From positions 1 to 64,000 of IMG/VR virus record IMGVR_UViG_3300037493_001906: DNA of 64,000 nucleotides, one strand, 5' to 3'. This DNA comes from a virus. The notes beneath the pieces are model-generated. The model was not told the origin of the DNA. It did not search any database and saw only the letters and a list, made by a program, of their open reading frames with translations. The position numbers were made by a program, and so were the translations under genes. Positions 4,221-58,714 of this stretch are shown in pieces. Each line of letters opens with the position of its first letter. The stretch's first letter is position 1.

Positions 4221-4240
4221 ATTTTAAACACACAAAACAC

Positions 4241-4377
4241 ATGGCAGCAAATACAAGAGTAAAGTTAAATTCAGAAGAGCTTAAGGATTATTTAAGACAC
4301 ATGATTACGAATAACATAGTTATTCAAGAGAGAGGTATCACTCCTATCTCATCAAATATTGAAGGAGAAGCTGGGAT
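4241..4377 (+). CDS. MoxR-type AAA+ ATPase, exon 1
   Basis: Exon 1 starts at the ATG at 4241 and codes for MAANTRVKLN and onward to GEAGI, the first half of the Walker A loop. The frame hits TAA at 4388-4390 if the RNA is not spliced, giving a useless 49-residue product. Joining base 4377 to 5484 restores GEAGIGKTS at residues 42-50 of a 468-residue protein. The split site was chosen because the last exon base is U, the intron then ends in G, and a guide sequence in the intron pairs with both exons. Confidence 0.9.
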
Positions 4378-4406
4378 TAATTCAAAATAATTTGTATATT
4401 GCAAAC

Positions 4407-5153
4407 ATGAAAAAATTATTCAAAGAATGTTTGCATAAAAATCTAAGTAATAAGTCAGGTATATACATTATAAAATGTAATGAACACACTTATATAGGTA
4501 GTAGTTGTAATCTATACTATAGATTAAAAAGACACGTGAGTGATCTTAATAATTTAAAACATAGTAATAAATTTTTACAAAACTTATATAATAAATATGG
4601 TTCAGACATTATAATATTTGATATAATTGAATATTGTAATATTGAAACTCTAATAATTAGAGAAACATATTATATAAAAACTATGTCACCTGATATTAAT
4701 CATGATTTAAATCCTGTAAAAAGAACTTTTAAAAAAGAATCTATAGAAAAGATTTCTAAAAGTTTAAAACAGTTATATAAATTAGGATTAAAAAACCCTT
4801 TTTCTAAAGAAGTACATAGATATAAACCCGATGGAAAATACATTGATTCACATGAATCATGCTGTGCTGCAGGTAGAAAATTAAATCTTAATGGATCTAA
4901 AATTTCTAAAGCAGCATCAGGTAAAGGAAGTTCATCTGGTGGGTATTTATGGTCTTATGAGAAAGTTGATAAACTAATAAAAAACATAAATCAATCTAAA
5001 AGAGTAAGATCTTTAGATATAAATAATAATGTGATTCACACATGGTTATCTATAAATGATTTATGTAAAGATTTAAAAATTAGTCATTCAGCTACATCAT
5101 TACGAATTAAAAAAGGTAATTATTACAACGGTTTAAAATACAAATTTATCTAG
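4407..5153 (+). CDS. intron-encoded GIY-YIG homing endonuclease with NUMOD repeats
   Basis: The 248-residue product begins at the ATG at 4407. A longer frame back to 4359 has no ATG and would run into exon 1. GIY is at residues 18-20, YIG at 29-31, the catalytic Arg at 39 (LYYRLKRH) and the metal-binding Glu at 86 (RETYYI). Two NUMOD-type DNA-binding repeats follow at about 130-180 (HRYKPDGKYIDSHESCCAAG) and 197-245. Such enzymes cut intronless alleles and drive copying of the intron. The host gene is presumably the same ATPase in related phages. The TAG stop is itself part of the intron guide region, so translation and folding of P1 may interfere with each other. Confidence 0.92.
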   Translation: MKKLFKECLHKNLSNKSGIYIIKCNEHTYIGSSCNLYYRLKRHVSDLNNLKHSNKFLQNLYNKYGSDIIIFDIIEYCNIETLIIRETYYIKTMSPDINHDLNPVKRTFKKESIEKISKSLKQLYKLGLKNPFSKEVHRYKPDGKYIDSHESCCAAGRKLNLNGSKISKAASGKGSSSGGYLWSYEKVDKLIKNINQSKRVRSLDINNNVIHTWLSINDLCKDLKISHSATSLRIKKGNYYNGLKYKFI

Positions 5154-5483
5154 TTCCAGGATAAAATTGGGTGAATTGCTGGAAACTCCTTAGAGTCTTA
5201 TTAGCTACAACATAACTAGAAATGGTAAGTGTGAATGCAGAAAATAGTAAGAATTGGACAATCAGCAGCCAAGCATAAATCTAAAAGGTTTGTGAAGGTT
5301 CAACGACTAGGTATTGAAACTAAGTTCCTCAACGGATTATCTCCAACTGAGTTCTGCTTAGAATATAAAATACCCAAGAGTGCCCGACAATTAAGTTTGA
5401 AAGACAACTTAATTGAAGATATAGTCTGAACTATAGTGAAAGCTATAGAAGTAAAGATAAAGAGCTTTACGATAACATAATTG
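5153..5483 (+). ncRNA. group I intron catalytic core (guide sequence to 3' splice site)
   Basis: This 331-nt stretch has no credible protein gene and holds the ribozyme core. Reading along it: guide sequence 5153-5159; P box AATTGCTGGAAA near 5174-5185; Q box AATCAGCAGCCAAGC at 5260-5274; R box GTTCAACGACTAG at 5298-5310; S box AAGATATAGTC at 5416-5426. GACTA in R and TAGTC in S are exact complements and form P7, the guanosine-binding helix. The boxes closely resemble those of the group IA introns of T4-like and Gram-positive phages. The exact subgroup would need a full fold. Confidence 0.88.
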
Positions 5484-6753
5484 AGGTAAGACTTCAACTA
5501 TTGTGCAACTAGCTAAAGAACTTGATATGAATTTTATCAGGCTTAACTTAGCTGAGATAGAAGAGCTAGGGGATTTGGTAGGATTTCCATTGAGACAATT
5601 TGAGATGTGTAAAGAAGGAAAAATGGTAGCTCAGACTATCCAAGTTCCTGAAACAAGAATGGTTCCTGTTATGGTTAAACAAACTATAACTGAAAACAGA
5701 CAAGTTCAGAAACAAGTAATGGGTGGTGATGGAAAACTTATGATGAGAACTGTTACTGTTCCTGTGAGCGTAGAGGTTGAAGTAGAGGAGATGCAAGAAC
5801 AAACTATTATGGTAGATAGAAATATCCAAGCCAATGATGGTGCTTGTATTTGGGTTGATGAGCATGCAGTAAATGAGTATGCTAAACAAAACTTTAGCTT
5901 TACAGGTAAGAAAAGAATGTCTTATTGTCCTCCAGAATGGATTACTGGTTTAGATAACAGACCAGGTATCCTTTGCCTAGATGATTATACTAGGGCAGAC
6001 CAAAGATTTATTCAGGCCTGTATGACTCTTATTGAGACACAAACTTATATGTCTTGGGAACTTCCTAAAGGTTGGACTATTATTCTAACTACTAATCCTG
6101 ATGATGGAGAGTATCTTGTTACACCAATGGATGATGCTCAGAAGACTAGGTTTGTAACTATTGACCTTAAGTTTGATGTTAATTGCTGGGCTAAGTGGGC
6201 TGAGCAAGCAGGAATAGATGGCAGGTGTGTTAATTTCTTATTGTTACATCCTGAGTTGGTACAAGGAACTTGTAATGCAAGGTCTATTGTTACCTTCTTC
6301 AATGCTATTTATTCTATAGAAGACTTTAGTTCTCAGCTACCACTAATCCAAATGATTGGTGAAGGTTCAGTAGGACCAGAGTTCAGCTATATGTTTACCA
6401 CATTTATCAATAACAAACTTGATAAGTTGGTAACTCCAAAAGATATTTTGCTTCATGACAATGAGCCTTATATCATAGGTGAATTAAGAAATTGTATTGG
6501 TAGAGGTGCAGATTATAGAGCTGATATTGCTAGTGTTTTAACTACTAGGTTAATCAACTTTACTATTAACTATTCCAATACTAATTCTATTACTCAAAAG
6601 GTAATTGATAGATTAATTAAACTATCCACAGATGAGGAGACTTTAACTGATGATCTCAAATATGTTTTGATTAAGAAAGTTCTTAATGGTAACAAAACTA
6701 AGTTTAACAAGCTTATGACTAATGGTGATGTCATGAGAATAGCAATGAAGTAA
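5484..6753 (+). CDS. MoxR-type AAA+ ATPase, exon 2
   Basis: Exon 2 supplies GKTSTIVQ (end of Walker A, residues 47-50 onward), Walker B as LCLDD with Asp 212 and 213, sensor 1 as TTNPDD with Asn 250, and DDAQKTRF, which suits the sensor/Arg-finger region. The order and the partner VWA gene fit the MoxR family, ATP-driven chaperones. An unusual Val/Thr/Glu-rich insertion at about residues 85-165 lies between Walker A and Walker B and looks like a long beta hairpin or stalk. The GTG at 5503 is not the start: it is codon 53 of the spliced protein. One base separates it from the next gene. Confidence 0.9.
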
Positions 6754-51681: not shown

Positions 51682-54600
51682 TTATCTTGGCGAGTAAAGT
51701 TCTTTATTATTTGTTAGAATCACAAGCATTTTGTAAGGATTACCATTTGGATACTTTGTATTATCATTAACAGGATCTTTTCTTAACCAAACTGTATTAG
51801 TATAATGTCTGAATTTTTTTCTTTCAAAAAAGTCTTTAGCATAATTAAGATTAACTGTATTTAAAGTTCTAGCATAACCATTAGCCCCAGTATTCCAAAT
51901 CATTCTCTCTGCAAAACCAGGAATATTAGGATTAAAATATTCACCTCTGTCATCAGTAATATCCCAGAACTGATTAAACCTATACTTGTTTTCTTCTTTA
52001 GAATAGAGTATATCTATTACATTAGAACCAATAATTGGATAGGTAGTAATAAGTTGAGGATCTTTTTTAATTGCTGTAGAAAGATTTAATCTTAAGTATC
52101 CTGAAACCTGTTCAGTATTGTAAATAACAGCCTTGTCAAAATTATAATCAAGCACATGGAATCTATCAAACCCATTAGTATCATACTTGTAACATTCAAG
52201 TTGATACTCAATGCTTCTTAGAGTATTAACAGTTTGTACAGTATTAACCATATACTCTACTTCAAATGGATAGTTAATACCATAATAATTACAATAGCTT
52301 TGATAAGCTAAATTGTGTATCCATATTCCATTGTTATGAGTAGTCAAAAATGTATTCTTACCAGGGATAACCAAGTCAGGATGCCAATCATGATAACTTA
52401 TCCAAGAACCAATTTTAGGATCATAACTAATAGTCCAAGAAGCATCTTCAAAATAAAGTTGCCATACAGGAATTGGAGGTTGTCCTTGTATTGGATTTGG
52501 AACTAATTGAGTATCATCTCCAAGTTTAATAGCAAACATATAAGCATTATTCATATATATATTAAAGGTATTGTCTTTTAATATATCATCATATTGAACA
52601 GTTATAGATGCAGGTAAATCTGTTCTTAAGCTATAATCTTTCTTGGTAAAGTAAAGTAGACCATTTTGATTATCATAGATACTTTGTGTTCCTACACCAA
52701 TAACAGGATTGTTAGTTAATGCAAAATTTGGAAATTGTTGAACAAGTTTAAAGGGGAGGTAGAGAACTAACCACCACTTGATGTCATTCATTGAAAGCTC
52801 ATTAAGCGAGTTAGTATAGGAAAATATTTTCCCTTGGTTTTGGCTAATCCAATAAATACCCATTGGAGTATTAATTACACTTAATCTGTCTTGACAAGAA
52901 GCAAACTCATATGGCCTATCTGCATTAGTTATACTTTGTAAAGGTTGACTAAATAATCCACCATCACCAATAACAAGTTTAGTACCTAATCCAGTTTCTA
53001 AAGTATCTGTACCTTGGAACATAACAGGACTTTGAGATTCAAAGAATATCATAGCCCCACTTTTATTAATAGGTTTTATACAAGTTAATGTTGATTCAAA
53101 GTCTTTATAATTATTAATTAAGAATATACTCCAGTTATCTCTAAGACTTTCATACTGATTTGGTAAAGAATAAATAACTCTATTCTTACTATACACATAA
53201 CAGTCTTCTGCTAATACAGGATTATAATTATATCTTTGGGTTGCTGCCCAAGAAACATAATTTAAAAATAACTTAGAATAACTTAGACTTTGATCATACT
53301 TATAATAATTAGTAGCTTTTATAATACCTGTATTAAATAAGATATTTGTATCATCATAATAACCTGGGTCATAAAATCTTTCAGTATCTAATTCTCCCCA
53401 ATCTCTTTGAGCAAGATTGATTTCAGTTTCTACATAAAAATCTTTTACTCCAGAATTAAATAAGTAGAACCATGCATATTCCATAGAAAAGGAAAGTGAT
53501 GTAAAATTAGGTAGTACAACCCATGTTCCTGGCGTATTACTTACATCATCTAAACTATAATAACTACTAGGAGTAACAATAGCATTAGGATTAAATGTAT
53601 TAAAAAAAGTACCCATTGATGAGGTAAAATCTCCAGTTTGAAATTGATTAAAGTTTGCCCAATATCTTGGATAAGGAATCATTTCATTTTTAGTATAATC
53701 AAATTGTGTTCCATCAGGTTCACCATACATCCAATTATAAAAATAGAAGAATGTGTTTTTTTCAGTATACCTTCCTACATAAGTATCTCCACCAAATAAA
53801 GTTCCTGTAGTTGAATTAAGATTTAATACACCTGTTCTTGGATTAGGAATATATAAAGGTGTAGTACATGTTGAAACAGGAATAAGAGATATACTATTAA
53901 TTTGACCATATTGATTTATTAACCTTTGTTTTAATGAAGCATAGTGAGAAGATGCTGTTTGAGGTCTTGTTCCTTTTGGATATGTAGCTAATCTAAAGTT
54001 TACATCTGAACTATAATCTGCAGGATTCTGAGAAGAAAAAGATTGTTTAGATGGATTTTTTACCTGAAGGTTATTAAAGATTGAAGGCTCTGCTAAAGCC
54101 ACAACATCTGTAACTCTTATTCTACTAAAATCACCTGTATCAGGATTTTTTAATGTATTGCCAGTTTGAATAGCTACATAATTAGACCTATATAAATTAT
54201 TAATTCTGTAAGTAGAATTAAATGTTGCAATTTGAGGACCAATATATTGTGCATGATTAATAACCCTTCTTCTATCACCAGTTGTAGGTATTGCATAATC
54301 TGTATATAAACAATGTGAATGATACCTTAATGCATAATCTTTATAACTAATAACAGCTTTAAAAAAGTTTAATGCAGTGTCTGTACCTTGAGTAAAGTAA
54401 TTAAAAAATAAAGGAATATTAGCCGTTAAAGCACTCACACTTGCCATGGGCATGTTTTGATATGCCCCATCTGCTTGTTCAATGTTTACTGAACCAGTGT
54501 TTAATCCATTATGTGTTGCTGTTTCTACATTATAGGCTTTATTTAAACCATTATATATAAAAGTATCATCAGATTTTCCTAATAAATTATTTGACCATGA

Positions 54601-57132
54601 GGTAAGTAAACCACCTTTTAGATTATTATAGTTTTTAAAATAGTTTAATAATGTAGTACCTATTGCTGTACCACTTCCTGTATTATTAAAGTATGCAATA
54701 TCTGCTTGAGTAGGAGATGTTACAATTAAATCATTTTGATTAATTGTTGTATCTCCTGTTGTATCATCATTGCCTGATGCATAAGTATTAGTATTTATGT
54801 TTGCAAACAAAGGAAATACTGTTCCTGGACCAAGAGTACCACTAGTATTACGTGTAGCAATATCTGTACTTAAATTATAATTTACTTTATGAGGTAAGTT
54901 TTCTTCAGAAAAACCCTGCATATATGGAGATACATAATTTACTTTTCTTTGACCATTCATTGCAATAGCAGCAATACCAAGACCAGCTAAAGCAGATATT
55001 ACAAAACAAAAATCTTTAATTAATTTTTCTCTTGGATGCTTATCTGATAATTCAAATTTACCTGTTATATTACCATGAAATTCACCATGAATTTTTATTT
55101 CTTTAGCAGAGAGGAATGGATTAACAAAAGTTGTATCAGGACTATGAAAACTAAATATATTATTATTAATGGATGCTTGAGGATTATATCCAACTTGGTC
55201 AATCATACCTCCACCATATGGATATTTTTGACCAGTTGTAGGGGTAGTAGATAAGAATGGATCAGCACCAAGATCATTATAGGGATAGTTAGCATATAAA
55301 CCTTTTTTACCTGAATTATCAGGTAGAGTATATTCTCTCATATTATTTATGAGACCTTTAGCTAAAATGGTTTTATTACCATTTCTTGTTCCTCTAAAGA
55401 TTTCATAACCCACAATACCTACAACAGGAGTACCATCATTTTTAATTGGTGCCTTAATCTTATCAAATACTACACCAAGTATTCTTATATTTCCTGTTAC
55501 AGGATCTGTGTATAGACAAGTAGATCCTGGACCAGTATTTAAATCAGGAAATTTATGATGTCTAATTTGTCTACCACAAAGATCAAATTGACCTTTTATA
55601 GAAACTCCATTTCCTATTCCTGGTGTTGCAGCTTGAATATTATATGGTAATACTCCTGGAATATTAAAACCAGGATTTAAAGTATTTGTTTCTGAATTCC
55701 ATACTTCAGGATTATCATCTGGATATTGTTCTGATGATTCCCAATATCCCATAATACCTTCTCCAATAACAACACCACCATCTGATAATATAGTATTAGG
55801 AGCATTAGTAAAAACAGATGTATTACCTACAAACCATTCTTCATTTGTAAGATCACCAGTTATACTATCTAGAGCATTAGGTATTCCATCTATTCCAGGT
55901 GCATTAAATTTTGGTCTACCAGGAATATGATATGCAGAAGATTTATCTCCTGTATCATATACCCATCTTATAAAAAAAGAATAAACTTCATCTCTTAAGT
56001 AATTAGTTTTATTTCCACCTTTAATATAATAATCTGCAGGATATTCTATAGATTGCCATTTTGTAATAATTTGGTTAGCTAAAGGTTGGTAATTAAAATC
56101 TTCTTTTGAAGTAGGTCCTGTTCTAATTAAATATGAACCAACAGAATATGTAGCATCTGTTTTATCTATAATAGGTGTCATGATTGGAATCTGTTCAATA
56201 GGAAAAGTTGGCCAAGTATTATCTATTGTATCAAAACTAAGTCTTTGTTGATGTGTACTATATACACCTGCTAATTTTGCTACTGTTTGTTGATTTACTA
56301 CAGATATAATTACTATTTGAAATTCTGTAAATCTAGTATCTAAACTAGTTAATATAACATCTAATGAACAGGAAGAGTTATTATGATTAAATAATGATTG
56401 CACATTTGATATATACCAATCACTTATTTTTTGGCCATCTACAGTATATGCAATAGCAACCATGTATGAACCATTGAGTAGTGTTCCTGAACCAAAACCA
56501 TTTTGTACTTCTACACAAGGCGTATCAATAAAGGTAGCTAATCTTAATTTATTACAATCAAGATTCTTTGAATTTATTGTATTATTACAAGTAGCAGAGT
56601 TATTAGGATCTGGAACTTGAATCCAAGGAATAGGACTATTAGGATTTAAATAACTATTATCAGATACTGGGTCAATAGTAAAAGTAAGATTTCTTGTTGG
56701 ATTTAATCCATCATCCCAGTATGCCCTATATGTACAACTAACTACAGGTCTTGTTACACCCTTAATTAAATTGGTTGCAGAAAAATTAAGACAAGGATCA
56801 TTTACAACAGTTTCATATGTACATAATGATTCAGTAAAAATACCTATCTCATGACAAGGACCATTAGTAGTATAAATTAACCATTTATCTGCAGTGATAT
56901 GTATTGTTCCAATGATTTTAGGAATTGAAGTACCACAACCAGTATAGGTTATATTAATACAATTTATATTTGAAGGTTCATTACCTAACTTTCCTAAGTC
57001 ACCAGTTTTAGAATTGTTTATAGCATTTCTAGCCTGGGTCCAGGAATCATCAGGTAAGTGAAAATCATTTACATCTTCACTTAACTCTTTGTCAAATCTA
57101 CGTGTATTAATCTGATTAGTATCTTTTGCCAT
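51682..57132 (-). CDS. 1816-residue tail protein, muzzle / tail-stabilisation candidate
   Basis: The N-terminus is MAKDTNQINTRRFDKELSED, then FHLPDDSWTQARNAINN. The rest is beta-rich with many Asn, Thr, Tyr and Pro and few charged residues, typical of an exposed virion beta structure. A short hydrophobic helix at about 715-730 (FVISALAGLGIAAIAMNG) breaks the pattern. It follows two ring/adaptor candidates and precedes the cargo genes, which is where crAss-like phages keep the large muzzle or P22 gp10-like tail protein. That role is inferred from order and composition. Its ATG overlaps the stop of the displaced gene end at 57132 (TAATG), the original junction. Confidence 0.65.
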   Translation of the reverse strand: MAKDTNQINTRRFDKELSEDVNDFHLPDDSWTQARNAINNSKTGDLGKLGNEPSNINCINITYTGCGTSIPKIIGTIHITADKWLIYTTNGPCHEIGIFTESLCTYETVVNDPCLNFSATNLIKGVTRPVVSCTYRAYWDDGLNPTRNLTFTIDPVSDNSYLNPNSPIPWIQVPDPNNSATCNNTINSKNLDCNKLRLATFIDTPCVEVQNGFGSGTLLNGSYMVAIAYTVDGQKISDWYISNVQSLFNHNNSSCSLDVILTSLDTRFTEFQIVIISVVNQQTVAKLAGVYSTHQQRLSFDTIDNTWPTFPIEQIPIMTPIIDKTDATYSVGSYLIRTGPTSKEDFNYQPLANQIITKWQSIEYPADYYIKGGNKTNYLRDEVYSFFIRWVYDTGDKSSAYHIPGRPKFNAPGIDGIPNALDSITGDLTNEEWFVGNTSVFTNAPNTILSDGGVVIGEGIMGYWESSEQYPDDNPEVWNSETNTLNPGFNIPGVLPYNIQAATPGIGNGVSIKGQFDLCGRQIRHHKFPDLNTGPGSTCLYTDPVTGNIRILGVVFDKIKAPIKNDGTPVVGIVGYEIFRGTRNGNKTILAKGLINNMREYTLPDNSGKKGLYANYPYNDLGADPFLSTTPTTGQKYPYGGGMIDQVGYNPQASINNNIFSFHSPDTTFVNPFLSAKEIKIHGEFHGNITGKFELSDKHPREKLIKDFCFVISALAGLGIAAIAMNGQRKVNYVSPYMQGFSEENLPHKVNYNLSTDIATRNTSGTLGPGTVFPLFANINTNTYASGNDDTTGDTTINQNDLIVTSPTQADIAYFNNTGSGTAIGTTLLNYFKNYNNLKGGLLTSWSNNLLGKSDDTFIYNGLNKAYNVETATHNGLNTGSVNIEQADGAYQNMPMASVSALTANIPLFFNYFTQGTDTALNFFKAVISYKDYALRYHSHCLYTDYAIPTTGDRRRVINHAQYIGPQIATFNSTYRINNLYRSNYVAIQTGNTLKNPDTGDFSRIRVTDVVALAEPSIFNNLQVKNPSKQSFSSQNPADYSSDVNFRLATYPKGTRPQTASSHYASLKQRLINQYGQINSISLIPVSTCTTPLYIPNPRTGVLNLNSTTGTLFGGDTYVGRYTEKNTFFYFYNWMYGEPDGTQFDYTKNEMIPYPRYWANFNQFQTGDFTSSMGTFFNTFNPNAIVTPSSYYSLDDVSNTPGTWVVLPNFTSLSFSMEYAWFYLFNSGVKDFYVETEINLAQRDWGELDTERFYDPGYYDDTNILFNTGIIKATNYYKYDQSLSYSKLFLNYVSWAATQRYNYNPVLAEDCYVYSKNRVIYSLPNQYESLRDNWSIFLINNYKDFESTLTCIKPINKSGAMIFFESQSPVMFQGTDTLETGLGTKLVIGDGGLFSQPLQSITNADRPYEFASCQDRLSVINTPMGIYWISQNQGKIFSYTNSLNELSMNDIKWWLVLYLPFKLVQQFPNFALTNNPVIGVGTQSIYDNQNGLLYFTKKDYSLRTDLPASITVQYDDILKDNTFNIYMNNAYMFAIKLGDDTQLVPNPIQGQPPIPVWQLYFEDASWTISYDPKIGSWISYHDWHPDLVIPGKNTFLTTHNNGIWIHNLAYQSYCNYYGINYPFEVEYMVNTVQTVNTLRSIEYQLECYKYDTNGFDRFHVLDYNFDKAVIYNTEQVSGYLRLNLSTAIKKDPQLITTYPIIGSNVIDILYSKEENKYRFNQFWDITDDRGEYFNPNIPGFAERMIWNTGANGYARTLNTVNLNYAKDFFERKKFRHYTNTVWLRKDPVNDNTKYPNGNPYKMLVILTNNKELYSPR

Positions 57133-57209
57133 TATCTAACTATTTTATCACCGTAGAGATCATTAGGATTTTTGTCCCACTGATACCAAGGATAACTCTT
57201 AAACTTACT
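57132..57209 (-). pseudogene. displaced original 3' end of the adaptor gene
   Basis: Read on the minus strand, this stretch codes for SKFKSYPWYQWDKNPNDLYG, then DKIVR and a stop. The intact upstream gene ends FKSYSWFQYDRNPNNYMGER, then VIR and a stop. Twelve of 23 aligned residues are identical and most others are conservative. It has no start codon and a TAA lies in frame just before it. Its TAA overlaps the next gene's ATG (TAATG), as at many junctions here. It is best read as the old C-terminus, cut off when the HNH gene arrived with a replacement end. Confidence 0.85.
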
Positions 57210-57212
57210 TTA

Positions 57213-57680
57213 TTATTTATGTTTTACAATATATTCAATTGCTTTAAGCATAATATTTATATTATCTTTAAATTTTCCAATACCTGTATTACAATTATCA
57301 CATAAAAAACCTCTAATTTTTTTAGTATTGTGACAATGATCTAATGAAAGATCTTTTTTTTGTGATGAGTTATGTTCACCACAAATGGCACAATAGCCGT
57401 TGTAAAAATCATAAAGTTTTTTATATTCTTGTTTAGTAATTTTTATACCCTGTTTTTTATAAGAAGACATTTTAACCCCTAATTTAAATTTTTCAGGATT
57501 TTGTTTTCTATAAATACTTGACTTTATTTTATTTTTTTCTAAATTTTTTGGAAGTTTAGCTCTTTTTTTTGCATCTTCATTTTTACAAAATTTGCAATGA
57601 GACGCATATCCAGACTTGTTTCTAGGTTCAACTCCAAATAAAGAAACCTCTTTATTTATTTTACATTTTGTACAAATCAT
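57213..57680 (-). CDS. free-standing HNH endonuclease, endonuclease VII type
   Basis: The 155-residue protein has an N-terminal four-Cys finger (Cys 3, 6, 29 and 32). It then has the endonuclease VII-type core: CAIC at 97-100, LDHCH at 113-117 and CDNCN at 127-131, where the His pair and the last Asn form the nuclease site and the four Cys bind zinc. It overlaps the adaptor gene by 4 bases (ATGA). No group I intron core surrounds it, so it is a free-standing homing endonuclease. It probably spreads by cutting the 3' end of the adaptor gene in phages that lack it. Confidence 0.9.
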   Translation of the reverse strand: MICTKCKINKEVSLFGVEPRNKSGYASHCKFCKNEDAKKRAKLPKNLEKNKIKSSIYRKQNPEKFKLGVKMSSYKKQGIKITKQEYKKLYDFYNGYCAICGEHNSSQKKDLSLDHCHNTKKIRGFLCDNCNTGIGKFKDNINIMLKAIEYIVKHK

Positions 57681-58714
57681 CTAATTACCCTTTCTCCCAT
57701 ATAATTGTTTGGATTACGATCATATTGAAACCAGCTATAACTTTTAAACATATCATAATATTTTGCATACTGAGCTCTACGATTAGTAGTCCATACTCTT
57801 TTCATTTCTGAGAAGTTAGGAGTATTAACAATAGTAAGAGCATAATTTCTTGCTGCTCTATATCCCTCTTGAATAAGTTGAATCTTAGCAGGACTAATAT
57901 TCTCATCATTCATGATAAGATTTTCTAGTATTCTTTTTTTAATAGCATACTCATAGTACTCATTTATCATATCATGATCTGGAACCATAAGATTACCTTC
58001 ATCATCTTCTAGATCACCTTGATAATTAACATATACTTTACCTGTTGTGAAACTGGTATAGAGATAGCCATTTTTTATCCAAGCAGAATTAACTGAATTA
58101 AGATACAAATTAGGACATCCACAATCTATTGATTCAGGATTCTCTAAAATTCTAATTGGCATTAATCTCTTATATGTATTAGTAGTTGTATTGATTCTCT
58201 GTACTAACTCATAGCAATCATTTTTACAATTCATAAATACCCTAGGCTTCCTACAGTAGTCACCAAATGGTTCTAAAGGATTGTAGTCTTGTGTAGAGCA
58301 TGCAGTAGAAGCAGCAATACAATTGCATGGTTCAAAATTGCATCTATTACAATTGACTGTAGGAGCTGCACAGACATCTATTGTTCCTGGAGTTTCTTGG
58401 TAAGGAGCTATTAGCTTTTCTTCAATCCAAGTACCTTGTGGCATAGCTTGTTGTACAGTAACTTCATCACAAATAAGTGCAAAGTTAAGAGTAAAGAAAT
58501 CATCAGGTAGTTTTACTCTTCCTTTTTCAACATCAAGTAATGCTTCTTTAGTCATCATAATCCTAAGACCAAGATCATAGTTAACTCTCTTAGCAACTTT
58601 AATAAGTTGTTGAGGTTCTATTTGATTTTGTAAAGCAGCATTTTGAAAATCAACCAGAGCTTCACTTAGAAGTTGATCAAATGTTCTATATTTAAGTGTA
58701 TAATTATACGACAT
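57677..58714 (-). CDS. 345-residue tail ring/adaptor candidate
   Basis: The N-terminal half has FDQLLSEALVDFQNAALQ and DVEKGRVKLPDDFFTLNFAL, the kind of helix-then-beta layout of tail tubular or connector ring proteins. A Cys-rich loop lies at about 115-155 (CNRCNFEPCNC). The helical C-terminus ends FKSYSWFQYDRNPNNYMGER, then VIR. Its order before the large tail protein matches ring proteins of crAss-like tails. The last part of the gene was probably replaced along with the HNH insertion, since a second, diverged copy of the C-terminus lies past the HNH gene. The role is inferred from position and composition. Confidence 0.6.
   Translation of the reverse strand: MSYNYTLKYRTFDQLLSEALVDFQNAALQNQIEPQQLIKVAKRVNYDLGLRIMMTKEALLDVEKGRVKLPDDFFTLNFALICDEVTVQQAMPQGTWIEEKLIAPYQETPGTIDVCAAPTVNCNRCNFEPCNCIAASTACSTQDYNPLEPFGDYCRKPRVFMNCKNDCYELVQRINTTTNTYKRLMPIRILENPESIDCGCPNLYLNSVNSAWIKNGYLYTSFTTGKVYVNYQGDLEDDEGNLMVPDHDMINEYYEYAIKKRILENLIMNDENISPAKIQLIQEGYRAARNYALTIVNTPNFSEMKRVWTTNRRAQYAKYYDMFKSYSWFQYDRNPNNYMGERVIR

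Follow-up and report, generated by a model that had tools for sequence, protein, structure and literature searches.

Homing endonuclease genes can be present within phage genes without loss of their function. With MobE in nrdA of T4-related phages, the target is divided into two gene pieces that both function. In this study, we analyzed a window of 64,000 nucleotides (positions 1 to 64,000 of IMG/VR record IMGVR_UViG_3300037493_001906, a virus record of 118 kb) in which an HNH endonuclease gene sits at the 3' end of the tail-ring gene encoding ring protein 1 (R1) and in which, in contrast to nrdA, the target gene is whole by means of a duplicated end. A comparable plan is known from hybrid genes of fungal mitochondria, i.e. 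atp6 of Allomyces macrogynus, atp6, atp9, cox2 and nad3 of Glomus, atp9 of Rhizopus and cox2 of Mortierella (PMC3630166; Paquin et al. 1994 cited there). Common to these hybrids and the window type is that a mobile endonuclease gene brings a foreign C-terminal end in frame and leaves the native end downstream, without an intron. The order of the parts and their reading frames are the same in the window; the foreign origin of the working end is established for DNA polymerase genes of related phages and is presumed for R1. The fungal hybrids are mitochondrial and the described cases concern 3' ends only (PMC3630166), whereas the cases reported here are from phages, involve HNH proteins of the Endonuclease VII (Endo VII) type and affect 3' as well as 5' ends.

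Intronless homing in phage T4 (PMC2988022) likewise features a free-standing endonuclease gene next to an essential gene, a stop-start overlap upstream and co-conversion of the flanks. That review nowhere uses the word stem 'duplicat', and the element described here differs in that it lies within a gene end and provides a substitute for it. F-CphI, a phage-encoded free-standing homing endonuclease of the DHHRN family, shares the Endo VII catalytic residues (PMC6083498) but, unlike in that system, no intron is involved in the window. In the literature searched, which left out most subscription journals, we found no description of end-duplicating intronless homing from a phage. We regard the arrangement as a variant of intronless homing, the novelty of which in phages is provisional.

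Two R1 gene ends around an HNH gene

All features of the locus lie on the minus strand. The R1 gene (57677..58714; PF24228 with 44.6 bits, the cut-off being 27, and alignment with 17 relatives) terminates in 23 codons, FKSYSWFQYDRNPNNYMGERVIR (57680..57748), which were delimited by comparison with the second copy and with relatives and which form its working end, of probable donor origin. The ATG of the HNH gene (57213..57680, 155 residues) overlaps the TGA stop of R1 as ATGA. On the 3' side of the HNH gene, two in-frame TAA codons (57215-57213 and 57212-57210) are followed by SK, by the 23 codons FKSYPWYQWDKNPNDLYGDKIVR of a leftover R1 end (57135..57203) and by a further TAA, with which the leftover spans 57203-57132. 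This TAA overlaps the ATG of the next gene as TAATG (57130..57134), an overlap also present in many HNH-free relatives. The downstream gene (51682..57132; PF25731) encodes the muzzle protein and is the usual neighbor 3' of R1. Pfam matches to ring protein 1, ring protein 2 and the muzzle protein therefore identify the virus as a crAss-like phage. The same order is evident in crAss001, where R1 (gp43) and muzzle (gp44) are numbered consecutively (PMC10172136). An earlier note on this DNA, made from the sequence, had described the duplicated gene end and the retained TAATG overlap. Both hold, and so does the assignment of the HNH gene (PF02945, 81.6 bits, above the cut-off), to which the identities of the flanking genes as R1 and muzzle are now added as a minor correction.

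The two ends agree in 12 of 23 residues and in 42 of 69 nucleotides. Their BLOSUM62 score of 89 compares with a maximum of 38 in 2000 trials with shuffled downstream DNA. Among 57 distinct R1 tails of relatives, the two window ends remain reciprocal best matches, and the tail of locus L003 is the runner-up to both (scores 79 and 85). The leftover frame is headless: it contains no ATG, GTG or TTG and is preceded by the two in-frame stops, which speaks against its being translated as a gene of its own. In the stop region of the HNH gene (57204-57218), AAA TAA TAA AGT AAG TTT aligns in frame with the codons for K Y Y D M F in R1 of relatives and, therefore, the leftover may start a few codons before FKSY.

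The HNH protein carries the residues D, H, H, R and N of the DHHRN/Endonuclease VII family together with flanking cysteine pairs (invariant C97, C100, D114, H115, H117, R123, C127, C130 and N131), and the DHHRN residues of F-CphI are present (PMC6083498). It is free-standing, as R1 is already complete ahead of it and the HNH protein has a frame of its own. No HNH relatives were found in bacterial genomes.

Three scans for R1 yielded sets of 87 and 80 loci; as nine loci of the second set lie on contigs already found, about 158 contigs are represented. A single R1 end was present at all of the about 157 HNH-free loci. None had both ends, which the earlier note had named as a finding that would refute its reading. 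The gap between R1 and muzzle mostly ranges from -1 to +17 nucleotides in these relatives. The R1 nearest to that of the window, L003, is only 71% identical. It was also the only match of a degenerate DNA pattern for the donor end, and no cultured phages with an R1 of the window type were found. In a breakpoint scan along the window R1, residues 256-285 weakly resembled L010. The presence or absence of an HNH gene at R1 is known between distant relatives only. The single relative with an HNH gene after R1 is the crAss-like L421, in which the HNH gene starts three bases past the R1 stop and encodes the closest relative found of the window HNH (50% identity). The downstream gene begins within the R1 end in HNH-free L419 but within the HNH end in L421, where its first stretch is a different one. 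Genes of the L024 type between R1 and muzzle were considered as comparable insertions and rejected, as they are regular genes of their clade. A crAss-like clade (L362-L434) contains a conserved metallopeptidase-like gene (motif HNTIAHEIFHA) in the same position, which often begins near or within the 3' end of R1.

Empty sites and co-conversion at the DNA polymerase start

The mirror image of the R1 locus occurs at the start of a crAss-like DNA polymerase gene. In L106, which emerged from a scan of HNH relatives for duplicated ends, this gene is preceded by an HNH gene whose product is 39% identical to that of the window. A leftover start, MRTHWVMDY, lies before the HNH gene and shares an ATGA overlap with the gene upstream, an overlap also seen in HNH-free L192 and L238, and the working polymerase start is MNRDRTHWVMDFETLSN. 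The same type of arrangement with different leftovers is present in L237, L213 and L269. The left junction, GAYTAT followed by TTGTGATTAT, is common to L106 and L237; in L269 it reads GATAAATTAT followed by TTGTGATTAT, and again the leftovers differ. Leftovers of this start type run into stop codons shortly past the junction.

HNH-bearing L237 and HNH-free L242 form a natural empty-site pair, with 98.2% identity over 1,425 nucleotides upstream and 99.2% over 4,360 nucleotides downstream. The element in L237 is inserted after GGACTAT. It comprises the HNH gene, a gene for an exonuclease-like protein (PHROG 'RNase H', PF16473) and the substitute start of the polymerase, and it measures 1,130 nucleotides if the whole recoded start is included. 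The 27-nucleotide leftover start is identical to the start in L242. Counted from the WVMD codons, the two polymerase genes differ at 13 of 36 nucleotides, and over the following stretch of about 1,810 nucleotides at 4 (Fisher p about 1e-20). In agreement, the polymerase body of L237 is nearest to L242 (1.00) and its first 12 codons are nearest to L213 (0.94) and L185 (0.92), the latter being the same contig as L106. L213 and L220 provide a second, looser pair of this kind. Presence/absence polymorphism and co-conversion are found together at the polymerase start in both pairs. As read from the sequences, L237 and L242 display the pattern expected of homing in which only a short tract is co-converted, namely a leftover from the resident and a working end from the donor.

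Polymerase leftovers resemble HNH-free alleles (0.93-1.00) far more than their own working copies (0.52-0.67). The working starts of HNH-bearing L185, L237 and L213 are mutually nearest (0.92-0.94), and in all three the residue after MD is encoded by TTC, which occurs in no listed HNH-free haplotype. Polymerase bodies cluster with HNH-free kin, and starts cluster with HNH-bearing alleles. The expected association of donor-like ends with HNH-bearing alleles, and of leftover-like ends with HNH-free ones, was therefore borne out here, at the polymerase gene of related phages.

Between the HNH gene and the new polymerase start, we observed a 3'-5' exonuclease-like gene in L237 (1927-2496) and unmatched frames of 65 and 69 residues in L213 (2301-2495) and L269 (4465-4671). 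Homing elements of this kind may carry cargo.

Recurrence at other phage genes

HNH proteins related to that of the window are associated with duplicated ends at the 3' ends of other genes and, mirrored, at gene starts. A fixed rule for duplicated gene ends was applied to 165 unique Endo VII loci and six permuted sets. It was positive for 9 of the 165, which were picked by similarity to these HNH proteins so that this is no prevalence figure, and for 1, 0, 1, 0, 0 and 1 in the permuted sets. Some of the cases given here did not pass the automated rule; L213, L237, L269, L274 and L117 were assessed by visual inspection. L274, L277 and L279 have a duplicated start at a neighboring position of a more distant polymerase. 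In L291 and in Leptolyngbya phage Lbo-JY46 (L350), a nicotinamide phosphoribosyltransferase gene is affected at its start, in both cases after the codons for DGYK. L304 has a duplicated tail-fiber gene end, and L292 a duplicated capsid gene end in which 28 residues are identical and 17 of 84 nucleotides differ. One amendment to the earlier reading is that the arrangement recurs and is no one-off accident.

Some of these loci have peculiarities of their own. In L292 (3800-4560), all 17 differences between the capsid end copies are silent and the G+C content is 55% before and 69% after the HNH gene, which suggests a donor with different codon usage. In L142 (2989-3504) and L117 (2920-3513), the leftover end of the upstream gene forms the end of the HNH protein itself (LGGKFHHKP and QKCCEVIK, respectively), i.e. 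the fossil end has turned into the C-terminus of the nuclease. L148, L167, L111 and L127 were positive in first screens and were rejected because paralogous genes, not duplicated ends, flank the HNH gene. The T7-like phages L352, L355 and L360, with an HNH gene beside the polymerase gene, were likewise rejected, as no leftover start is present; their HNH genes look like ordinary intergenic insertions.

Proposed homing route and alternative explanations

We consider it probable that the window HNH gene is an intron-free homing element residing at a gene end, and that a recoded donor R1 end arrived with it and the resident end stayed downstream. By analogy with the polymerase alleles, the upstream copy would be that of the donor and the downstream copy that of the resident. 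The nuclease would cut R1 in an HNH-free genome close to the 3' end of the gene, at about the codons for YYDMFKSY, and repair from an HNH-bearing genome would copy in both the recoded end and the HNH gene. The part of R1 before the cut would be the resident's own, completed by the donor end, and the old end from the cut onward would remain 3' of the HNH gene and still provide the muzzle overlap. At the polymerase, the same plan would be mirrored at the 5' end. The two R1 ends flanking the HNH gene could serve as homology arms for the next round. The leftover would hold half of the target only and the working copy would be recoded; therefore, neither should be recut. The nuclease activity, the exact cut site and immunity by recoding are predictions. 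The anatomy of the locus, the single R1 end in HNH-free relatives, the recurrence and, for the polymerase, the empty site with the co-conversion tract were observed directly.

Several points weigh against this reading. Neither a near-identical HNH-free R1 allele nor the donor allele of the window was found in the collections searched. Donor and resident in the window are assigned rather than seen, which amends the original proposal of a diverged donor end at R1; the polymerase alleles support that proposal. A recombination breakpoint along R1 was not resolved, as the relatives are too distant and no clear switch appeared. No recognizable R1 leftover is present in L421. Site-specific cleavage by the window HNH protein is a prediction. 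Finally, the reciprocal best match of the two R1 ends, with L003 almost equally close to both, leaves room for a tandem duplication in one lineage, in which aberrant repair upon HNH insertion duplicated the resident end and the copies diverged later, without any donor end. We regard such a duplication as unlikely. The copies differ at 27 of 69 nucleotides though the unused one has retained its frame, so most of this divergence probably predates the insertion. Moreover, polymerase leftovers match the resident allele and working copies match other HNH-bearing alleles, which local duplication cannot yield.

The intact frame and the retained TAATG overlap could also mean that the downstream copy is functional, either as an alternative R1 end reached by readthrough or as a leader for muzzle translation. 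In view of the missing start codon, the two in-frame stops ahead, the lack of such an extra copy in HNH-free relatives and the early stops in start-type leftovers, this appears very improbable. A self-splicing intron joining R1 to the downstream end, with the apparent leftover as 3' exon, is conceivable in a genome that seems to hold an intron with a GIY-YIG gene elsewhere (about 4.3-5.5 kb of the window). It has hardly any credibility at R1, since the gene is already completed by the upstream copy, only about 80 nucleotides lie outside the HNH frame, and the arrangement is found at gene starts too. No Rfam intron model matches in the window at the gathering threshold, nor around the locus at a relaxed one, and no group I core structure was found around the HNH gene, in line with the intron-free nature claimed from the outset. 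The window, like most of the relatives, was assembled from a metagenome, and two strains might have been merged in one contig. This is extremely improbable given that the arrangement occurs at several loci, that the same HNH-bearing alleles were recovered from different samples (L185/L268, identical over 6.5 kb, and L237/L271), and that the deposited genome of the named phage Lbo-JY46 has it as well.

The second candidate element lies at 4240-5530 on the plus strand, where a frame resembling AAA-ATPases is interrupted within its Walker A motif (..IEGEAGI, then GKTSTIVQLAKELD..) by a GIY-YIG/NUMOD1 gene. This has the appearance of an intron that carries a homing endonuclease gene, with all Rfam models below threshold.

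Taken together, we think it likely that these loci represent a recurrent class of intron-free phage homing element, which is made up of an Endo VII HNH gene and a recoded terminus, in some cases with cargo, and which invades the 3' or 5' ends of essential genes. The duplicated end would keep the gene working, the copies would act as homology arms and recoding would confer immunity. This would be a third route, beside introns and inteins, by which a homing endonuclease can reside within an essential phage gene without harm, and it would extend an oddity of fungal mitochondria to phages and to 5' ends. L237 and L242 offer a natural before-and-after view of one event, which opens the cut site, co-conversion and immunity to direct testing. 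The arrangement could account for short gene fragments beside HNH genes in phage genomes, and such elements would remodel the termini of structural and replication genes.
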